DNA of 64,000 bases from Alphaproteobacteria bacterium (GTDB lineage: Bacteria; Pseudomonadota; Alphaproteobacteria; Micavibrionales; UBA2020), in the NCBI GenBank assembly GCA_016794125.1, contig JAEUKT010000002.1:907396-971395 (forward strand). The letters are read 5' to 3'. The translations under genes were made by a program, and so were the position numbers. Under the pieces are notes generated by a model. The model did no database searches, was not told the DNA's origin, and was given only the letters and a program-made list of their open reading frames with translations. Shown here one piece after another: positions 19,254-25,769 of the stretch (position 1 is the first letter of the stretch; the number at the start of each line of letters is the position of its first letter).

Positions 19254-19889
19254 TTACTGTGGCGGCGTACCCGGATCGAAATCGCCGGGGATCTGGCCTT
19301 GCTGCGGAGGCGGCGCGCGGTCGGGCGGAGGCCCGCGTTTGTCATCGGGCGGAGGCCCGCGTTCCCCATCCGGGGGCGGCCCGCGGAAATCTCCATCAGG
19401 GCCGCTATGCGGGGGCGGGCCGCCGAAACCGGCGGGGCCGTTGCGCCCGTCAGGTGGTGGCGGCGCTTTTTCCATCAGGCGTTTGGCGAATTCAAGACGC
19501 TTGTCGTCGGGCAAATCGGCGATTTTTTTGGCGGCCTTTCCCTGCACCGATTTTTTCACGCCGTCCATTTCGGCATCGATCGCGGCCAGATGCTGCGCCG
19601 CCTGTTCCTCGGTCACCTTGCCCTGCATCAGCGTCTGCGCGAATTCCTTGCGCAGCGCCTGCACTTTTTCAAAACGTCCTTCGATTTCCTTGAAATGCTC
19701 CTTCATTTCATCCGCGCCGAACAGTTCCTGCGGGCCGAACATCGGCGGCGGGGGCGGGCCGTTGCGCTGATCGCCCTTGGTGAAGGCGGGCGCGGGCATC
19801 GATGGCGGCAGCACAGACATGCGTCCTAGCACAAAAGCGGCCAGGAAGACGTTCAGTGCGACAGAGGCAAGCAGGGCTTTGTTGTTCAT
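19254..19889 (-). CDS. membrane-anchored periplasmic sensor, Spy/CnrX (Metal_resist)-like
   Basis: 211 residues from the ATG with AAGGAG upstream; the longer frame has no support. There is one N-terminal membrane helix (about residues 5-24), then a helical periplasmic domain (about 58-143) with the paired-helix pattern of the heavy-metal resistance/CpxP-Spy families. The tail (145-211) is Pro/Gly/Asp-rich with GPPPD repeats. It is third in an operon with an ECF sigma factor and a one-helix anti-sigma-like protein, as CnrX is with CnrY and CnrH. Metal binding is not shown: Cys is absent and His is scarce, so general envelope-stress sensing is as likely. Confidence 0.7.
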   Translation of the reverse strand: MNNKALLASVALNVFLAAFVLGRMSVLPPSMPAPAFTKGDQRNGPPPPPMFGPQELFGADEMKEHFKEIEGRFEKVQALRKEFAQTLMQGKVTEEQAAQHLAAIDAEMDGVKKSVQGKAAKKIADLPDDKRLEFAKRLMEKAPPPPDGRNGPAGFGGPPPHSGPDGDFRGPPPDGERGPPPDDKRGPPPDRAPPPQQGQIPGDFDPGTPPQ

Positions 19890-19902
19890 TGTCGGATGCT
19901 CC

Positions 19903-20169
19903 TTACATCGGCATCTCGGCCACGCTGTCGGGGCCAAGGATGACGCTGTCCATGAAATTATTCTGCGTTGAAACGGCCTGAGCGGCGGGTGTCGCGTTGC
20001 CCAGCCAGAAGCCGGTCGCTGCGACGATCGCGAACATTGCCACTTGCGCGAAGGCATGGCGGCGCGTGCTGCGCGGTTGTGCGGCGGCATCCGCCACGAT
20101 ACGGTCGAGCAATGCGCCGCCGGCGTCGCGCACCTGATAGGCGCTTAAAAATTCGTCAAGCTTGTCCAT
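19903..20169 (-). CDS. putative one-helix anti-sigma factor
   Basis: 88 residues: a short cytoplasmic N-terminus (DKLDEFLSAYQVRD), one membrane helix (about 40-58, FAQVAMFAIVAATGFWLG) and a short periplasmic tail. The size and topology match CnrY-type anti-sigma factors. The start overlaps the sigma-factor gene by 14 nt, so production is coupled. It probably tethers the sigma factor to the membrane until the neighbouring periplasmic protein signals. Confidence 0.7.
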   Translation of the reverse strand: MDKLDEFLSAYQVRDAGGALLDRIVADAAAQPRSTRRHAFAQVAMFAIVAATGFWLGNATPAAQAVSTQNNFMDSVILGPDSVAEMPM

Positions 20170-20746
20170 TTTCCTTCTCCCTCTCCAGCAACGCGTCCTT
20201 CAGGCTCTGGCGTGCGCGGTACAGCAATTGCTGGAACGCGTTCAGCGTCAGGCCGGTTGCGGCCGCTGCCTGTTCGTTGCTGAGTTCTTCGTAATAACTC
20301 AGCACGACAGCGGCGCGCTGGCGCGGCGGCAACCTTCCCAGAGCCGCCTGCACCTGCCGCGACCGTTGCTGCTGCTGCAGCGATAATTCCGGTCCCGGGC
20401 TTGTATCGGGTGTCGTGTCGTTGTCGCCCAGCGGCAGCAGCCGCCGTTTACGCTTGTGGTCGATGCAGGCATTGGTCATCACGCGGTAAAGCCAGGTGGT
20501 GAATTTTGCCTCGGGCTTCCATTTGCCCGCGTCGTTCCAGATGCGCAGGCAAACTTCCTGCGCCACATCCTCGGCATCGGCGCGGCTGCCCAGCATACGC
20601 TCTGCAAACCGCACGCAGAAATTCAGGTGGCGCGCGACCAGCATCCGGTATGCCGCCGCGTCCTGCCGCGCAATGCGCTGCATCAGCGCGTGATCGGTAT
20701 CCGATGCTGGTTCCAAAATCGCCTTCCGGGCTGTCCCGCGATACAC
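20156..20746 (-). CDS. ECF-type RNA polymerase sigma factor
   Basis: 196 residues. Region 2 is visible in YRMLVARHLNFCVRFAERMLGSRADAEDVAQEVCLRIW and FTTWLYRVMTNACIDHKRK; region 4 in LGRLPPRQRAAVVLSYYEELSNEQAAAATGLTLNAFQQLLYRARQSL. The listed start is a GTG; a TTG at 20716 with GGAAGG upstream is an equal alternative and would remove ten residues. It heads the sigma/anti-sigma/sensor operon, and the promoter just upstream matches a second one at 21295-21324, suggesting autoregulation and at least one further target. Confidence 0.9.
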   Translation of the reverse strand: MYRGTARKAILEPASDTDHALMQRIARQDAAAYRMLVARHLNFCVRFAERMLGSRADAEDVAQEVCLRIWNDAGKWKPEAKFTTWLYRVMTNACIDHKRKRRLLPLGDNDTTPDTSPGPELSLQQQQRSRQVQAALGRLPPRQRAAVVLSYYEELSNEQAAAATGLTLNAFQQLLYRARQSLKDALLEREKENGQA

Positions 20747-20749
20747 CTG

Positions 20750-20779
20750 TAACGCAGCGGCTGGACATAAACTTACGCC
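20750..20779 (-). promoter_or_regulatory. ECF promoter, sigma-factor operon
   Basis: On the minus strand, GGCGTAAGTTT (20769-20779), 14 bp, then CGTTA (20750-20754). The same -35 and spacing occur at 21295-21324. The -10 touches the GTG start at 20746, which favours the downstream TTG (20716) as translational start. Confidence 0.6.
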
Positions 20780-20794
20780 GGAATTGAAAAAGAA

Positions 20795-20825
20795 AGAAGC
20801 CCGCCGGGGACCGCGGCGGGCTTCT
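20795..20825 (-). terminator. Rho-independent terminator
   Basis: A 12-bp stem AGAAGCCCGCCG / CGGCGGGCTTCT with a 7-nt loop. On the minus strand it is followed by a T-rich run (20785-20794). It ends the proline-rich protein gene and insulates the sigma operon. Confidence 0.9.
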
Positions 20826-20842
20826 TCCTTGGTAAAGGGTTT

Positions 20843-21262
20843 CTATTCGGTTTTGGCGGGCGGTTTCTGGCCGCCGTTTTGGCCACCCGGGGGCGGGCCG
20901 CCATTACCGCCATCGGGCGGAGGGCCGCCGTGACCGTCACGCGGGGGCGGCGGCGGGCAGGGGGGACGTTCCCCATCCTTGCCTTCCGGCGGCGGACCGG
21001 GGGGAGGGCCCGGGGGCGGGCCGCCTTCTTTTCCATCGGGCGGCGGCGGTGGCGGCGGGCATTTGCCGTCATGGGGCGGGCGTTCGCGCTGTTCACCGCT
21101 TGATGCGCTGTCCGTGCCCTGCTGTTTTTGCGGGGGAGGGCCGCGATGGCCGCTTTGCTGGCCGGACTGCTGCTGGCCGCCGGATTGTTCGGCCGCCGCC
21201 TCCAGCTGCGCCGCCAGAGACAGCGCAAGGATGACGGCAGTCGTCGCGAATAGTTTTTTCAT
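20843..21262 (-). CDS. secreted Pro/Gly-rich low-complexity protein
   Basis: 139 residues with a signal peptide (MKKLFATTAVILALSLAAQ). The mature part is almost entirely Pro, Gly, Gln, Asp and Lys with repeated PPPDG/PPPEG units and two isolated Cys (in GKCPPPP and RPPCPPP). It resembles the C-terminal tail of the sensor at 19254-19889. An ECF-type promoter upstream matches that of the sigma operon, so it is probably a regulon member exported under the same stress. The molecular function is unknown. Confidence 0.75.
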   Translation of the reverse strand: MKKLFATTAVILALSLAAQLEAAAEQSGGQQQSGQQSGHRGPPPQKQQGTDSASSGEQRERPPHDGKCPPPPPPPDGKEGGPPPGPPPGPPPEGKDGERPPCPPPPPRDGHGGPPPDGGNGGPPPGGQNGGQKPPAKTE

Positions 21263-21294
21263 GATAATCCCCTGTATATGAGCCGATGCCTATG

Positions 21295-21324
21295 AAACGG
21301 AAAGGGCGGCTGTAAACTTACGCC
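21295..21324 (-). promoter_or_regulatory. ECF promoter, proline-rich protein gene
   Basis: On the minus strand, GGCGTAAGTTT (21314-21324), 14 bp, then CGTTT (21295-21299). The -35 is identical over 11 bases to that at 20769-20779. A GGGCGGC/GCCGCCC hairpin overlaps it and may also end the upstream protease transcript. Confidence 0.6.
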
Positions 21325-21353
21325 GCCCCTTCGAAGAATTTATGAAAGTAATT

Positions 21354-22379
21354 TTATGCCCGTTTATGCAGCCACCAGCTGTCGCTGTTCAGCGAAAAGA
21401 TGGGTTTATAGCGGCTGACGTTTTCCGCCATGCGCGTCGCTTTGTCCTGGTTGTCCAGCACATAGGTGTTGCCGCCGTCATAAACGATCAGGATGGCATG
21501 GGGCACGTTCTTGATTTTGTCCTGCACGATCGCCACGCGCATCTGGTCGGCCGAAAAGCCGAGCGCGCGCAAGGACGCGTATTTCGCGATTGCGTAATCT
21601 TCGCAGTCGCCGCCGCGGGTCAGGAATTCGATCGGCGTGGACCACTGGTCTGACTTGCCGTAGTTGCGGCTGTCTTCGACGTAGCGCACGCTGTTCATGT
21701 ACTGGTTCACTTCCTTGATCTGCTGTTCGCGCGACATGCCGCGCAGGCCTTCCAGCTGCGCTTTCCAGTTGCGCACGGTCTGGCTGTCGCCTTGCGTCTT
21801 CATCTGGCTGTCAAAACGGGCCATGACGGATGTCCATTTCGGGAACATTGCCACGCCGTTAGATTTCACTTCGGATGTGCCGAACAGGCCGGGCGCGCCA
21901 TGCGGGGTCACCGCGGGGCGGACGGCGGCGGTCGTGAAGGCGGCTGCCATGCGCACGTTCTGCCCGCCCGATCCCTGATCGGCGCTGGCGGCGGAAGGGG
22001 TGACGACCTGCATCATCAGCGCCATGCCGGCGGTCGATGCCTTGATGCACCATTGTTCGGCCAGTTTGCGATACAGCTGCACGGCCGAGAGAGAACCTTG
22101 TTCAACCAGCGCCTTGCCAAGGCGGATACCGGTTTCTTTCTGGGTGGCCAGCGCCTTGTCCAGCTGGCATTTCGTAATCATGCCGCTATTTACAAGGAGG
22201 TCACCGAGTTTATAGCTGCGAACGGTGCAACCGACCGAACGGATGAAGTTCCCGTGGATATCGGGGGTTTTGCAATCGGTTGATTCTGTGCGCTGGTCTT
22301 TTTGTAACTGCATACGATCACTGCCCTTTTTCGTATTTTGTGACGACCTTGTAACAGTTCCATAATACGCAGGTGACAT
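21354..22379 (-). CDS. MshEN (c-di-GMP-type) domain fused to LapG-like cysteine protease
   Basis: 341 residues from the ATG with AGGAG at 7 nt; the two extra residues in the longer frame lack support. Residues 57-80 and 86-109 are two 24-residue units beginning KLGDLLVNSG and RLGKALVEQG, separated by exactly five residues. This is the tandem motif of MshEN domains that bind cyclic di-GMP in type II/IV secretion ATPases. Residues 115-131 are hydrophobic and end with AASA, resembling an internal signal or anchor. Residues 180-341 are a transglutaminase-like cysteine protease of the LapG/BTLCP type: Cys259 in GGDCEDYAIAKY, His294 in NVPHAILIV and Asp309 in YVLDNQ. LapG proteins cut adhesins in the periplasm. 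No LapD or adhesin gene is in the window. Confidence 0.85.
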   Translation of the reverse strand: MSPAYYGTVTRSSQNTKKGSDRMQLQKDQRTESTDCKTPDIHGNFIRSVGCTVRSYKLGDLLVNSGMITKCQLDKALATQKETGIRLGKALVEQGSLSAVQLYRKLAEQWCIKASTAGMALMMQVVTPSAASADQGSGGQNVRMAAAFTTAAVRPAVTPHGAPGLFGTSEVKSNGVAMFPKWTSVMARFDSQMKTQGDSQTVRNWKAQLEGLRGMSREQQIKEVNQYMNSVRYVEDSRNYGKSDQWSTPIEFLTRGGDCEDYAIAKYASLRALGFSADQMRVAIVQDKIKNVPHAILIVYDGGNTYVLDNQDKATRMAENVSRYKPIFSLNSDSWWLHKRA

Positions 22380-22490
22380 TAACAAACTCCTAAAATGGGC
22401 AGCGGGTATGGAACCTTTTTCAACTTGAGGCGCATACCTTATTATGATAAAAATCTTGTAATATTATTATCACCCGTAATTGGCGGTCAT

Positions 22491-23966
22491 ATGCTTGAAA
22501 ATTCAGCCCTTTTTAAAGACCTGACGAAACTTTCCGCCGCGCGCGTACTGTGCCTTGGCGATGTGATGCTCGATCGTTTCATTTACGGCGGCATCGAACG
22601 CATTTCCCCCGAAGCGCCGATTCCGGTGCTGCTGGTCGAGCGGGAAAAGCACATGCTGGGCGGCGCGGGCAACGTGGTCGCCAATATCGCGGCGCTGGGC
22701 GCCAAAGCCGTGCTGGTGGCTGTTGTCGGCAACGATGCCGCAGGTGCGGATGTGGCGAAGCACTTGGGCGAACTGGGCGTAGATGCGCAGCTGGAAACTT
22801 CCTCCGACCGCTTCACGACCGTCAAAAGCCGTTTCGTGTCAGCAGGCCAGCAGATGCTGCGCGTCGACCGCGAGAAAACAGCGAACATCCCCGCCGACGT
22901 CGAAGACCGTGTCATCGCGCGCGCCGAAAAAATCATCCCGACTGTCGGTGCGGTCATTTTGTCCGACTACAAAAAAGGCCTGCTGACTGAACGCGTGGTA
23001 TCGGGCGTGATCGACATCGCGCGCCGCCACAATGTGCCGGTCGTGGTCGATCCCAAGGGCACGGATTTCTCCCGCTACCGCGGCGCATCGGTCATCACGC
23101 CGAACCGCAAGGAACTGGAAACCGCAACGGCGATGAAGGCCGGTACGGATGAAGAAGTGCGCGCGGCGGCGATGAAGATCATCACCGGCTGCGGCGTTCC
23201 CGCCGTGCTGGCGACGCGTTCGCGCGACGGCATGTCGCTGGTCACAAACGATGAAAATCCGCTGCACATTCCCGCCAATATGCGCGAAGTCTTCGACGTA
23301 TCGGGCGCGGGCGATACCGTGATCGCGACCTTTGCATCCGCGATGGCGGCGAAAATCCCGATGCGCAATGCGGCGCTGCTGGCGAACATCGCGGCGGGTA
23401 TCGTGGTCGGTAAGCCCGGCACCGCAACCGCGCGCCCCGAAGAAATCGAAACCGCTATTTCGGGCGGCTATGCGATGGAAAAACAGGCCTATCAGCGCAA
23501 GACGAAATTCGCCACGCGCGACGGCGCGGCCGAACAGGCCGACCGCTGGCGCACGCGCGGGTTCAAGGTCGGCTTCACCAATGGCTGCTTTGACTTGCTG
23601 CATCCCGGCCATGTGGCGACGTTGCGTCAGGCCAAGGCCGCCTGCGATTATCTTGTTGTCGCGATCAACAGCGACGCGTCGGTGAAGCGCCTGAAAGGCC
23701 CCACGCGCCCTGTGCAGGACGAACAGGCGCGCGCCGCGATTTTGTCGGCGCTGGAAATGGTCGATATCGTTGTTGTGTACGACGAAGACACCCCCATCGA
23801 AACGCTGAAGGCCGTGAAGCCCGATGTGCTGGTCAAAGGCGGGCAGTACAAGCTGGAGGAAGTCGTCGGTTACGACCTGATCCAGCAATGGGGCGGCAAA
23901 GTCGTGCGCGCCGACATGGAAGATGGTTTTTCGACCACAAATACCATTGCGAAAATGGCTGGCTAA
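22491..23966 (+). CDS. hldE: bifunctional heptose 7-phosphate kinase / heptose 1-phosphate adenylyltransferase
   Basis: 491 residues; the ATG at 22491 gives the usual length. The N-terminal half is a PfkB/ribokinase-type domain (GGAGNVVANIAALG; the DVSGAGDTVIATF anion hole and catalytic Asp). The C-terminal half is a nucleotidyltransferase (GFTNGCFDLLHPGHVATLRQAK with the HxGH motif). Together they make ADP-heptose precursors for the LPS inner core from sedoheptulose-derived heptose phosphate. The gene is divergent from the protease gene, sharing an AT-rich 110-bp control region. Confidence 0.95.
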   Translation: MLENSALFKDLTKLSAARVLCLGDVMLDRFIYGGIERISPEAPIPVLLVEREKHMLGGAGNVVANIAALGAKAVLVAVVGNDAAGADVAKHLGELGVDAQLETSSDRFTTVKSRFVSAGQQMLRVDREKTANIPADVEDRVIARAEKIIPTVGAVILSDYKKGLLTERVVSGVIDIARRHNVPVVVDPKGTDFSRYRGASVITPNRKELETATAMKAGTDEEVRAAAMKIITGCGVPAVLATRSRDGMSLVTNDENPLHIPANMREVFDVSGAGDTVIATFASAMAAKIPMRNAALLANIAAGIVVGKPGTATARPEEIETAISGGYAMEKQAYQRKTKFATRDGAAEQADRWRTRGFKVGFTNGCFDLLHPGHVATLRQAKAACDYLVVAINSDASVKRLKGPTRPVQDEQARAAILSALEMVDIVVVYDEDTPIETLKAVKPDVLVKGGQYKLEEVVGYDLIQQWGGKVVRADMEDGFSTTNTIAKMAG

Positions 23967-24026
23967 CAAGCCCTTGCCGCGCTAGGATTTCAGCTGTTCA
24001 ACAATAAAAAGACAGCGATTCCGCCC

Positions 24027-24893
24027 GTGGCAAAAAATGTGTTCAGCATTGACCTGCCTTTGACATCCGCATCCTGCGTGGTGGCGGACAGCCCCCATAG
24101 CGGCAAGGATTACCCCGCCGATTTCGATTACACCTGCGACCTGCATAGTTTACGGCAGGCGGAGGATATGGCGGTCGATCAGCTTTACAATTTCATGCCC
24201 GCCATCGGCGTGCCGCTGCTGCAGGCGCAATTTCCGCGCAGCTATATCGATGCCAACCGCGCGGAGCTGCCGGTGCAAAACCTCGAGGGGGAATATGACG
24301 GCGGCGACAGCAGCCTTGTGCGCGGCGTGATATCGCCCCGCCATACGGCGAAAATCTATGACCGCACATTATCCCTCTCCGAAGTGTTCAACCGCGTCGC
24401 CGATTACCACCGCCCTTATCACGACAAGCTGGCGGCGATGATCGACGATGCCCATGCGCGGCACGGCAAATCTGTTCACCTGAATTTGCATTCCATGCCC
24501 TCCACCATCAATCGCGGCACGGGCGTGAACCCGTTTGATATCGCCATCGGCACGCGCGACGGAGACACTTGCGCGCCGCATATCGCGGAAAAGCTGCGCG
24601 CGCTGTTTGCGGCTAAAGGTTACAACGCTGTGATCGATACGCAGGGCTATCGCGGCGCGGAAATCGTGCGACGTCATGGCGACCCCGTGAATGACCGCCA
24701 CAGCGTGCAGGTGGAGGTCAACCGCGCACTGTATATGGATGAAAAAACGCTGCAGCTGAAACCGCAATTCACGGCATTTCAGAATGACCTGCGCGAGATC
24801 ATGTGCGATTTTATCGCATGGTGCGACAGCCCCGCCGTTGCCAGCAGGCCGCAGCCTTCGGCGGGTGCAACGCCGAAACGTCCTGCCGCTTAA
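24027..24893 (+). CDS. N-formylglutamate amidohydrolase family protein
   Basis: 288 residues from a GTG start. The N-terminal DSPHSGKDYP, RSYIDANRAE and HLNLHSMPS segments carry the family's His, Asp and Glu metal-site residues. The family releases formate and glutamate from N-formylglutamate in the histidine pathway (HutG), but no other hut gene is nearby, so a general N-formyl or related amidase role is possible. The Ala/Pro-rich C-terminal tail is probably disordered. It is convergent with a TPR protein gene. Confidence 0.88.
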   Translation: MAKNVFSIDLPLTSASCVVADSPHSGKDYPADFDYTCDLHSLRQAEDMAVDQLYNFMPAIGVPLLQAQFPRSYIDANRAELPVQNLEGEYDGGDSSLVRGVISPRHTAKIYDRTLSLSEVFNRVADYHRPYHDKLAAMIDDAHARHGKSVHLNLHSMPSTINRGTGVNPFDIAIGTRDGDTCAPHIAEKLRALFAAKGYNAVIDTQGYRGAEIVRRHGDPVNDRHSVQVEVNRALYMDEKTLQLKPQFTAFQNDLREIMCDFIAWCDSPAVASRPQPSAGATPKRPAA

Positions 24894-24896
24894 TAT

Positions 24897-25466
24897 TTAT
24901 TCCTTGGAATCTTCTTCGTCGTCTTCAGCGGGCGCTGCTTCCTGCACGCGCTGGCCGCGCTTATAGCGGTTGACCAGCGCTTCCAGTTCGTCCAGTTCTT
25001 CGCAGCTTGAATCGCCGCAGGTCAGGCGGATGACCTGCATCTGCTCGACCGCGCGGGCAAGGTCGCCCATCTCCAGATAGCTTTGCGCGATATAGCGGTT
25101 GGCACCCAGATGTTTCGGGTTGATGCTGATGGCTTTGGCGTAATTCTCCCGCGCCTTTTTCTTGTCGCCGAGGCGGTAATAGGCATAGCCGCGATAGGTA
25201 TAGGCATCCGCCGACATCGGGTGGCGCGACAGCACGGCGTTCAGCACGCTGAGCGCCTGCGAATATTTGCCGGTCGATAGGTAATATTCGGCTGTGATCA
25301 GGCCTGAATCCTCGCGGAACGGTACCTGGTTTTTCTTTTCCTTCATCACCGGTTTTTCGAATGTGTCGGGCGCGTATGGATTGGCATAGGGGTCAGCCGC
25401 CAGCGCTTGTGATGAAAACGCGAAAAGCCCCAGCATCAGGGCGGCGGCGGAAAGTGTCAGGCGCAT
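24897..25466 (-). CDS. exported TPR protein
   Basis: 189 residues with a signal peptide cut after ALA (residue 23). Two or three tetratricopeptide repeats span residues 55-130 (SADAYTYRGYAYYRLGDKKKARENYAKAI and HLGANRYIAQSYLEMGDLARAVEQ). A Cys pair (CGDSSC) follows and the tail is acidic (EDDEEDSKE). TPR units bind proteins; a periplasmic scaffold role is likely. It starts 3 bp after the acylphosphatase stop, so the two form an operon. Confidence 0.85.
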   Translation of the reverse strand: MRLTLSAAALMLGLFAFSSQALAADPYANPYAPDTFEKPVMKEKKNQVPFREDSGLITAEYYLSTGKYSQALSVLNAVLSRHPMSADAYTYRGYAYYRLGDKKKARENYAKAISINPKHLGANRYIAQSYLEMGDLARAVEQMQVIRLTCGDSSCEELDELEALVNRYKRGQRVQEAAPAEDDEEDSKE

Positions 25467-25469
25467 GGT

Positions 25470-25769
25470 TTATACCGGTACAGTTTGCTCGATGCGGAAA
25501 TCTTGGATGCCGTCATACTGTGCTGGTTCGCTATGGAGCTTGTCAACCCTTGCCAGACTGGGGCCGTGGCGGCAGGCGCGCACCATGTCATCGACGGCAT
25601 GCGCTTCGCCGTGCAGCAGCGCTTCCACGCTGCCATCCGACCGGTTGCGCACCCAGCCGTAAATGCCGCGTTCAATGGCCTGCGACTGCAGCCAGCGGCG
25701 ATAGCTCACGCCTTGTACAAAGCCGTGGACGAAGACGCGGATCGTTTCTGTCGGTACGGGCGTATTCAT
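25470..25769 (-). CDS. acylphosphatase
   Basis: 99 residues. It hydrolyses carboxyl-phosphate bonds of acyl phosphates. The signature GFVQGVSYRRW carries the phosphate-binding loop and catalytic Arg, and VRNRSDGSVEALLHGE holds the catalytic Asn. The length is usual for the family. The ATG at 25769 is preferred to the TTG nine bases upstream. It is followed by a TPR protein gene only 3 bp away. Confidence 0.92.
   Translation of the reverse strand: MNTPVPTETIRVFVHGFVQGVSYRRWLQSQAIERGIYGWVRNRSDGSVEALLHGEAHAVDDMVRACRHGPSLARVDKLHSEPAQYDGIQDFRIEQTVPV

Follow-up and report, generated by a model that had tools for sequence, protein, structure and literature searches.

A single polypeptide that joins an MshEN domain, predicted to bind c-di-GMP, to a LapG-type protease is found across an order of Micavibrio-like Alphaproteobacteria, and we propose, with a probability of about 0.6, that it functions as a c-di-GMP-controlled, Lap-type adhesin-release protease whose sensor and catalytic modules reside in one chain. 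In many bacteria the choice to stick or to leave is set by c-di-GMP, the Lap pathway being its well understood example, and in other bacteria sensing and adhesin cutting are the tasks of two separate proteins. A Lap-type control of adhesin release with both in one chain is apparently new here. The MshEN-protease fusion itself is apparently undescribed, judging from the genomes and literature searched: as the earlier note had supposed, no description of it was found in the literature on LapG together with MshEN or on BTLCP proteins together with c-di-GMP, as far as the available text of those sources goes. If the proposal is true, an order that includes epibiotic predators runs a Lap-like control on a single chain without LapD, prey attachment and release become open to testing, and a nucleotide-binding domain set directly before a signal-peptide-like segment would represent a new coupling between a second messenger and protein export; should the export gating proposed below also be true, a second messenger would control in cis how its own effector is secreted.

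The fusion gene and its reading frame

The fusion gene occupies positions 21354–22379 of the window, the 64,000-nucleotide stretch of DNA analysed here, and encodes 341 amino acids followed by a stop codon. These boundaries agree with those given in the earlier note, which had left the strand unstated; the gene is on the minus strand, and the plus strand of the same interval contains no open frame. A ribosome-binding site, AGGAG, is predicted from the sequence at 22387–22391 (minus), 7 nt before the ATG at 22379. Substitution patterns among relatives reveal purifying selection on the MshEN part (pN 0.15–0.38 versus pS 0.51–0.81) and no constraint on residues 1–44 in the same comparison, and because these first residues are free to change, the position of the start codon is not as secure as the MshEN domain. 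That freedom is also what favours an artefact, in which the N-terminal part would go untranslated and the protein would be an ordinary periplasmic BTLCP. We consider this highly improbable, as a Shine-Dalgarno sequence precedes the first ATG, purifying selection extends throughout the MshEN domain, the full-length fusion frame is open in about 130 genomes across the order, and no conserved internal start was found among the relatives upstream of the segment that joins the two modules. An internal translation start was ruled out on the latter ground and on that of purifying selection, so that translation of the N-terminal part in this frame, which the earlier note had named among the points on which its reading could fail, is very probable.

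Divergent from the fusion gene lies a frame (22491–23966, plus) that we take, by sequence recognition rather than profile search, to be a bifunctional ADP-heptose gene of the hldE type. It adjoins the fusion gene head-to-head in 19 of the 28 loci compared, and the persistence of this pairing suggests a shared divergent promoter region. An Rfam scan of window positions 20000–25500 returned no match, which argues against a c-di-GMP riboswitch of a known family at the locus. Also beside the fusion gene, on the minus strand, are an ECF-type sigma factor-like frame (20156–20746) and two proline-rich frames (19254–20090 and 20843–21262).

The MshEN module and its predicted c-di-GMP site

Residues 57–109 (22053–22211, minus) correspond to the predicted c-di-GMP-binding MshEN domain, KLGDLLVNSGMITKCQLDKALATQ-KETGI-RLGKALVEQGSLSAVQLYRKLAEQ, with motif I at residues 57–80 (22140–22211, minus) and motif II at residues 86–109 (22053–22124, minus). 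The two 24-residue motifs and the exact five-residue gap recognized at the outset are borne out both by the sequence and by the NCBIfam model NF053729 ('c-di-GMP_motif, MshE-related'), which matches residues 57–109 over all 53 of its positions and scores 63 bits, its cut-off being 38. Searched against the PDB, a profile of 62 relatives retrieves MshE bound to c-di-GMP (5HTL) with an E-value of 6e-18, and a Foldseek comparison with MshE superposes 55 residues at 0.5–0.9 Å with 49% identity.

The combination of Pfam families that had been put forward as a check of the architecture, PF05157 with PF06035, is recovered in its second half, and the MshEN module is detected by NF053729 instead of PF05157, which has no match on the fusion protein. 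This miss is expected because PF05157 describes sequence that follows the 53-residue motif; in the PilB-like ATPase of the same genome, the only other PF05157-type protein there, the profile likewise covers only the part beyond the motif. PF05157 was consequently set aside as a test for MshEN, the region it covers being downstream of the motif. In this ATPase (L002, C2:851857–852123) both motif-end glutamines are lost, with K and T in their places, and it may for that reason not bind c-di-GMP.

To describe the putative ligand site we counted, in VcMshE numbering, the residues of 62 relatives at the contact positions R9, L10, G11, L25, L29, Q32, R38, L39, G40, L54, L58 and Q61. G11, L25, L29, G40, L58 and Q61 are invariant in the 62 sequences, the R9 position is R or K in all of them, the L10, L39 and L54 positions are hydrophobic throughout, and the Q32 position is Q in 54. 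The R38 and G47 positions vary across the order, with canonical R and G kept in the window protein, which retains every listed contact residue except for K in place of R9. Lysine is the natural state at this position in the GSPII-B domain of T. thermophilus PilF, whose affinity for c-di-GMP exceeds that of MshE and is raised by the lysine (PMC11731258); by this analogy, the exchange is presumably a tolerated change. We conclude from the sequence that the module is a canonical c-di-GMP-type MshEN domain, for which ligand binding is predicted.

A LapG-like protease

The C-terminal part of the protein, residues 165–339 (21363–21887, minus), comprises a LapG-type BTLCP (Peptidase_C93) domain together with its N-terminal region. 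PF06035 matches residues 216–320 with an E-value of 6.6e-19 and 68.7 bits against a cut-off of 27, and the top PDB match of the protease is LapG, both by profile (E-value of 3e-33) and by fold. The LapG/BTLCP triad originally assigned by eye, namely Cys259 within G-D-C-E-D (21603–21605, minus), His294 (21498–21500, minus) and Asp309 (21453–21455, minus), is confirmed by the alignment of relatives, in which all three residues are invariant. Furthermore, the calcium-ligand positions of LapG are matched in the window protein by Asp258 and Glu260, the residues that flank the catalytic cysteine of LapG having a role in calcium coordination according to PMC13090378. In one clade (L019, L021–L024 and L044) the glutamate after the catalytic cysteine is replaced by lysine (GGDCKDYA). 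The NCBIfam model NF045674 (CystProtLapG) scores 100.3 bits, below its cut-off of 320, and we classify the predicted protease as LapG-like but not as a LapG equivalog. It is the only BTLCP in the window genome; a second, stand-alone BTLCP gene lies close to the fusion gene in some genomes (L133 and L053).

Distribution and origin of the fusion

Relatives were sought in 142 genomes of the Micavibrio-like order, records named Micavibrio among them. A relative of the fusion is present in 138 genomes, and in about 131 of the 142, as counted among the matches listed, the match starts at or before the MshEN motif. In a class-wide sample of 385 alphaproteobacterial genomes, of which 4 belong to the same order and 381 lie outside it, none of the 381 yielded a match extending into the MshEN region, and a plasmid search returned partial matches only, to the BTLCP part without MshEN. 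In a tree of the BTLCP domains, the stand-alone homologs from outside the order form a single clade with a support of 100/99. Because the MshEN-less L044 and L125 nest among the fusions, the tree fits a single ancient gain followed by later MshEN losses; L124 is a long branch of unsure placement. In L126 (G038:C9) the reading frame is interrupted between the two MshEN motifs, which is either a step toward a pseudogene or an assembly error.

c-di-GMP receptors in the order

The window genome contains 12 GGDEF and 4 EAL domain matches. The search for LapD elsewhere in the genome that the earlier note had recommended was extended to the order: the LapD_MoxY_N domain (PF16448) is found in 0 of the 142 genomes, the window genome included, and as a working positive control the same profile scores above its threshold in 108 of 398 genomes from across the phylum.

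It is nevertheless conceivable that the MshEN domain plays no regulatory part, being a structural relic or serving in targeting, and that the protease answers to another receptor or to transcription only. A candidate for such a receptor may be a 744-residue frame of the same genome (L172, C2:470300–473200), which has a LapD-like layout of a transmembrane segment, a periplasmic stretch, a second transmembrane segment, a HAMP-like region, a GGDEF domain with a degenerate motif (SADEF) and an EAL domain whose motifs look intact. In the same direction point the retention of the protease where MshEN was lost (L044, L124 and L125) and the example of Caulobacter HvyA, which is governed by its abundance in the cell cycle (PMC4241560). 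We nonetheless regard a non-regulatory MshEN domain as improbable: no other positions of the domain are as conserved as its contact residues, which would not be expected of a relic, and the candidate receptor lacks both the LapD domain and the GWxQ motif and retains intact-looking EAL motifs. As a separate observation, three distant members (L043, L054 and L057) have a GGDEF gene of one and the same family near the fusion gene; these genes count as weak evidence since they face the fusion gene and are not co-directional with it.

The segment joining sensor and protease

Residues 110–133 (21981–22052, minus) form a signal-peptide-like segment with K113, an h-region and A131-S132-A133, which reproduces the n-h-c layout typical of cleavable signal peptides: R/K, a short core, a polar stretch and A-x-A. 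In alignment A1, A133 is invariant and A131 nearly so. The core is weak, with a best 19-residue Kyte-Doolittle mean of 0.94 in the window protein against a median of 1.45 among the fusions and of 1.88 for the signal peptides of homologs that stand alone outside the order. Finally, the corresponding stretch of the MshEN-less orthologs (L044/L129, L124 and L125) is an ordinary N-terminal signal peptide. For these reasons, namely the conserved A-x-A, the weak core and the ordinary signal peptide of the MshEN-less orthologs, we judge cleavage of the segment more likely than a stable anchor, at roughly 60 to 40. The internal signal/anchor that had been noticed at residues 115–131 is accordingly upheld as an export-type segment at about 110–133 and weakened as an anchor, and the further idea of proteolysis in the periplasm controlled across one membrane segment is not sustained, given the resemblance to a cleavable signal peptide and the invariant A133.

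Under that idea the segment would be an uncut transmembrane anchor in a ToxR/CadC-like topology, and c-di-GMP-bound MshEN would switch a tethered periplasmic protease through the helix. Structure models are in line with such a route, as helix 4 of the MshEN domain is predicted to continue into the hydrophobic segment both in the window protein (residues 99–125) and in a distant member (residues 63–92), giving one continuous helix in each. The register is also fixed, with R or K four residues past the last contact glutamine (Gln+4) in 62 of 62 sequences, and the LapG-type protease DvhG of D. vulgaris is described as membrane-anchored in PMC13090378. Besides the features that speak for cleavage, the model of the window protein places about 35 low-confidence residues between the segment and the protease, a distance that argues against transmission through the helix, and we find the tethered arrangement, the chief alternative to the proposed mechanism, rather doubtful. 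A cut by signal peptidase would separate sensor and protease and confine any effect of c-di-GMP to the time before or during export; if the cleavage were constitutive, the MshEN domain could be unable to affect the protease.

A giant adhesin with a LapG-type motif

A candidate adhesin with a LapG-type site, for which the earlier note had advised looking elsewhere in the genome, is a giant type-I-secreted protein of 3,124 residues (C2:1355407–1364778), whose gene is followed by a TolC-like gene and then by a LapB/LssB-type ABC gene. Transporters of the LapB/LssB type (TIGR03375) exceed the cut-off in 128 of the 142 genomes of the order, the window genome included. Over its full length the giant protein contains a single [TAP]AAG, at residue 213 within LNAIEPAAGGDGGGG, directly after the N-terminal domain, which closes with IEPAAG and so presents the LapG cleavage consensus (surrounding stretch, GEFGEVLASATQLNAIEPAAGGDGGGG); that consensus is given as a helix, then DP, then [T/A/P]AAG in PMC13090378. 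In the 30 loci examined, [IVL]E[PTA]AAG occurs 45 times against 0.058 expected from shuffles, and all 45 occurrences fall within the first 330 residues; the loci without the motif before the Gly-rich linker are L144 and L158, which have short frames, and L168, which has a different linker. The homologous N-terminal domain is present in 88 of the 142 genomes, less widely than the fusion, and mostly opens long frames, many of 2,000–3,700 residues. The LapA retention module NF033682 has no match on the N terminus of the window genome's own adhesin, where BapA_N matched weakly instead. The protease and adhesin genes are unlinked on contig C2 of the window genome (about 929 kb versus 1,355 kb); no BTLCP other than the fusion occurs in this genome, which leaves it as the only candidate enzyme for the adhesin site.

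The divergent gene in 19 of 28 loci, presumably an hldE-type LPS heptose gene, and the smaller number of genomes with the adhesin domain than with the fusion could both favour a different envelope target for the protease, for instance capsule or LPS export, in place of the giant adhesin. HvyA, itself an alphaproteobacterial BTLCP, prevents capsulation (PMC4241560). We consider such a target unlikely, because the adhesins carry the LapG consensus far above chance and at the expected place, and a second BTLCP able to cut the adhesin is absent from the window genome.

Matches to NF033682 (retention_LapA) occur in 96 genomes, and those inspected are FecR-type proteins; these were dropped as the main substrate, as a conserved AAG site near the N terminus is absent from them. 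A second class of giant proteins (L136, 4700–8257; L085–L090) has a FecR-type N terminus, which in the L136 protein is confirmed as FecR and followed by FG-GAP repeats, likewise confirmed. In several genomes FecR-type giants lie within about 10 kb of an LssB-type T1SS transporter.

Proposed mechanism and comparison with known systems

We infer that the cytosolic MshEN domain binds c-di-GMP and that its last helix enters the export segment without a linker, which places the putative binding site (Gln109) just four positions ahead of the basic residue with which the segment opens. At high c-di-GMP, the bound MshEN domain would restrain the protease, the likeliest means being interference with the export or processing of the chain, and at low c-di-GMP the BTLCP part would reach the periplasm and cut the giant adhesin at (I/V)EPAAG, after its N-terminal retention-like domain, thus releasing the cell. 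The proposed direction, in which high c-di-GMP silences the protease and the cell stays attached, follows the analogy with LapD-LapG, and control before or during export is favoured because the likely cleavage site would split the sensor from the protease. In its most specific form, an order-wide replacement of LapD-LapG by one polypeptide in which c-di-GMP-bound MshEN, set ahead of a signal peptide, gates in cis the protease's export or processing, the proposal is tentative, and we hold it to be possible rather than probable. The single-chain replacement of LapD-LapG originally envisaged thereby keeps its two domains in one chain, the absence of LapD and the adhesin site, and gives up signalling through a membrane segment.

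The proposed system resembles LapD-LapG-LapA of P. fluorescens and CdgS9-LapG of Legionella in its LapG-type BTLCP with a C-H-D triad and calcium-ligand positions, in its LapB-type T1SS and giant protein with [TAP]AAG after the N-terminal domain, and presumably in its link to c-di-GMP. It differs in that LapD is absent, the predicted c-di-GMP module is a cytosolic MshEN domain within the protease's own chain, and the protease gene does not stand beside the adhesin genes. In DvhD-DvhG of Desulfovibrio vulgaris, the Lap logic is likewise rebuilt with a different c-di-GMP receptor and a LapG-type protease with an anchor; unlike in the fusion, DvhD is a separate HD-GYP/dCache protein, and the available text of PMC13090378 describes DvhG without a cytosolic sensor domain. 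With other MshEN proteins (VcMshE, PilB/PilF and NfrB) the fusion shares the two 24-residue motifs, the five-residue spacer and a fold that agrees to 0.5–0.9 Å; PMC5013675 lists ATPases, glycosyltransferases and signalling domains as the partners of MshEN, with no protease among them. Caulobacter HvyA is similarly a BTLCP of an alphaproteobacterium that leaves the cytosol by means of a signal sequence, and differs in having 272 residues and no MshEN domain, in being controlled by abundance and in restraining capsule formation (PMC4241560).

In Micavibrio aeruginosavorus, the 2,892-residue RTX protein GMV0107, encoded just upstream of TolC, HlyB and HlyD genes, has an expression index of 16.9 during attachment as compared with 0.3 in the attack phase (PMC3189940). 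Compared by layout alone, its gene arrangement matches that of the 3,124-residue giant protein, and a link to predation via a GMV0107-like giant protein is possible.
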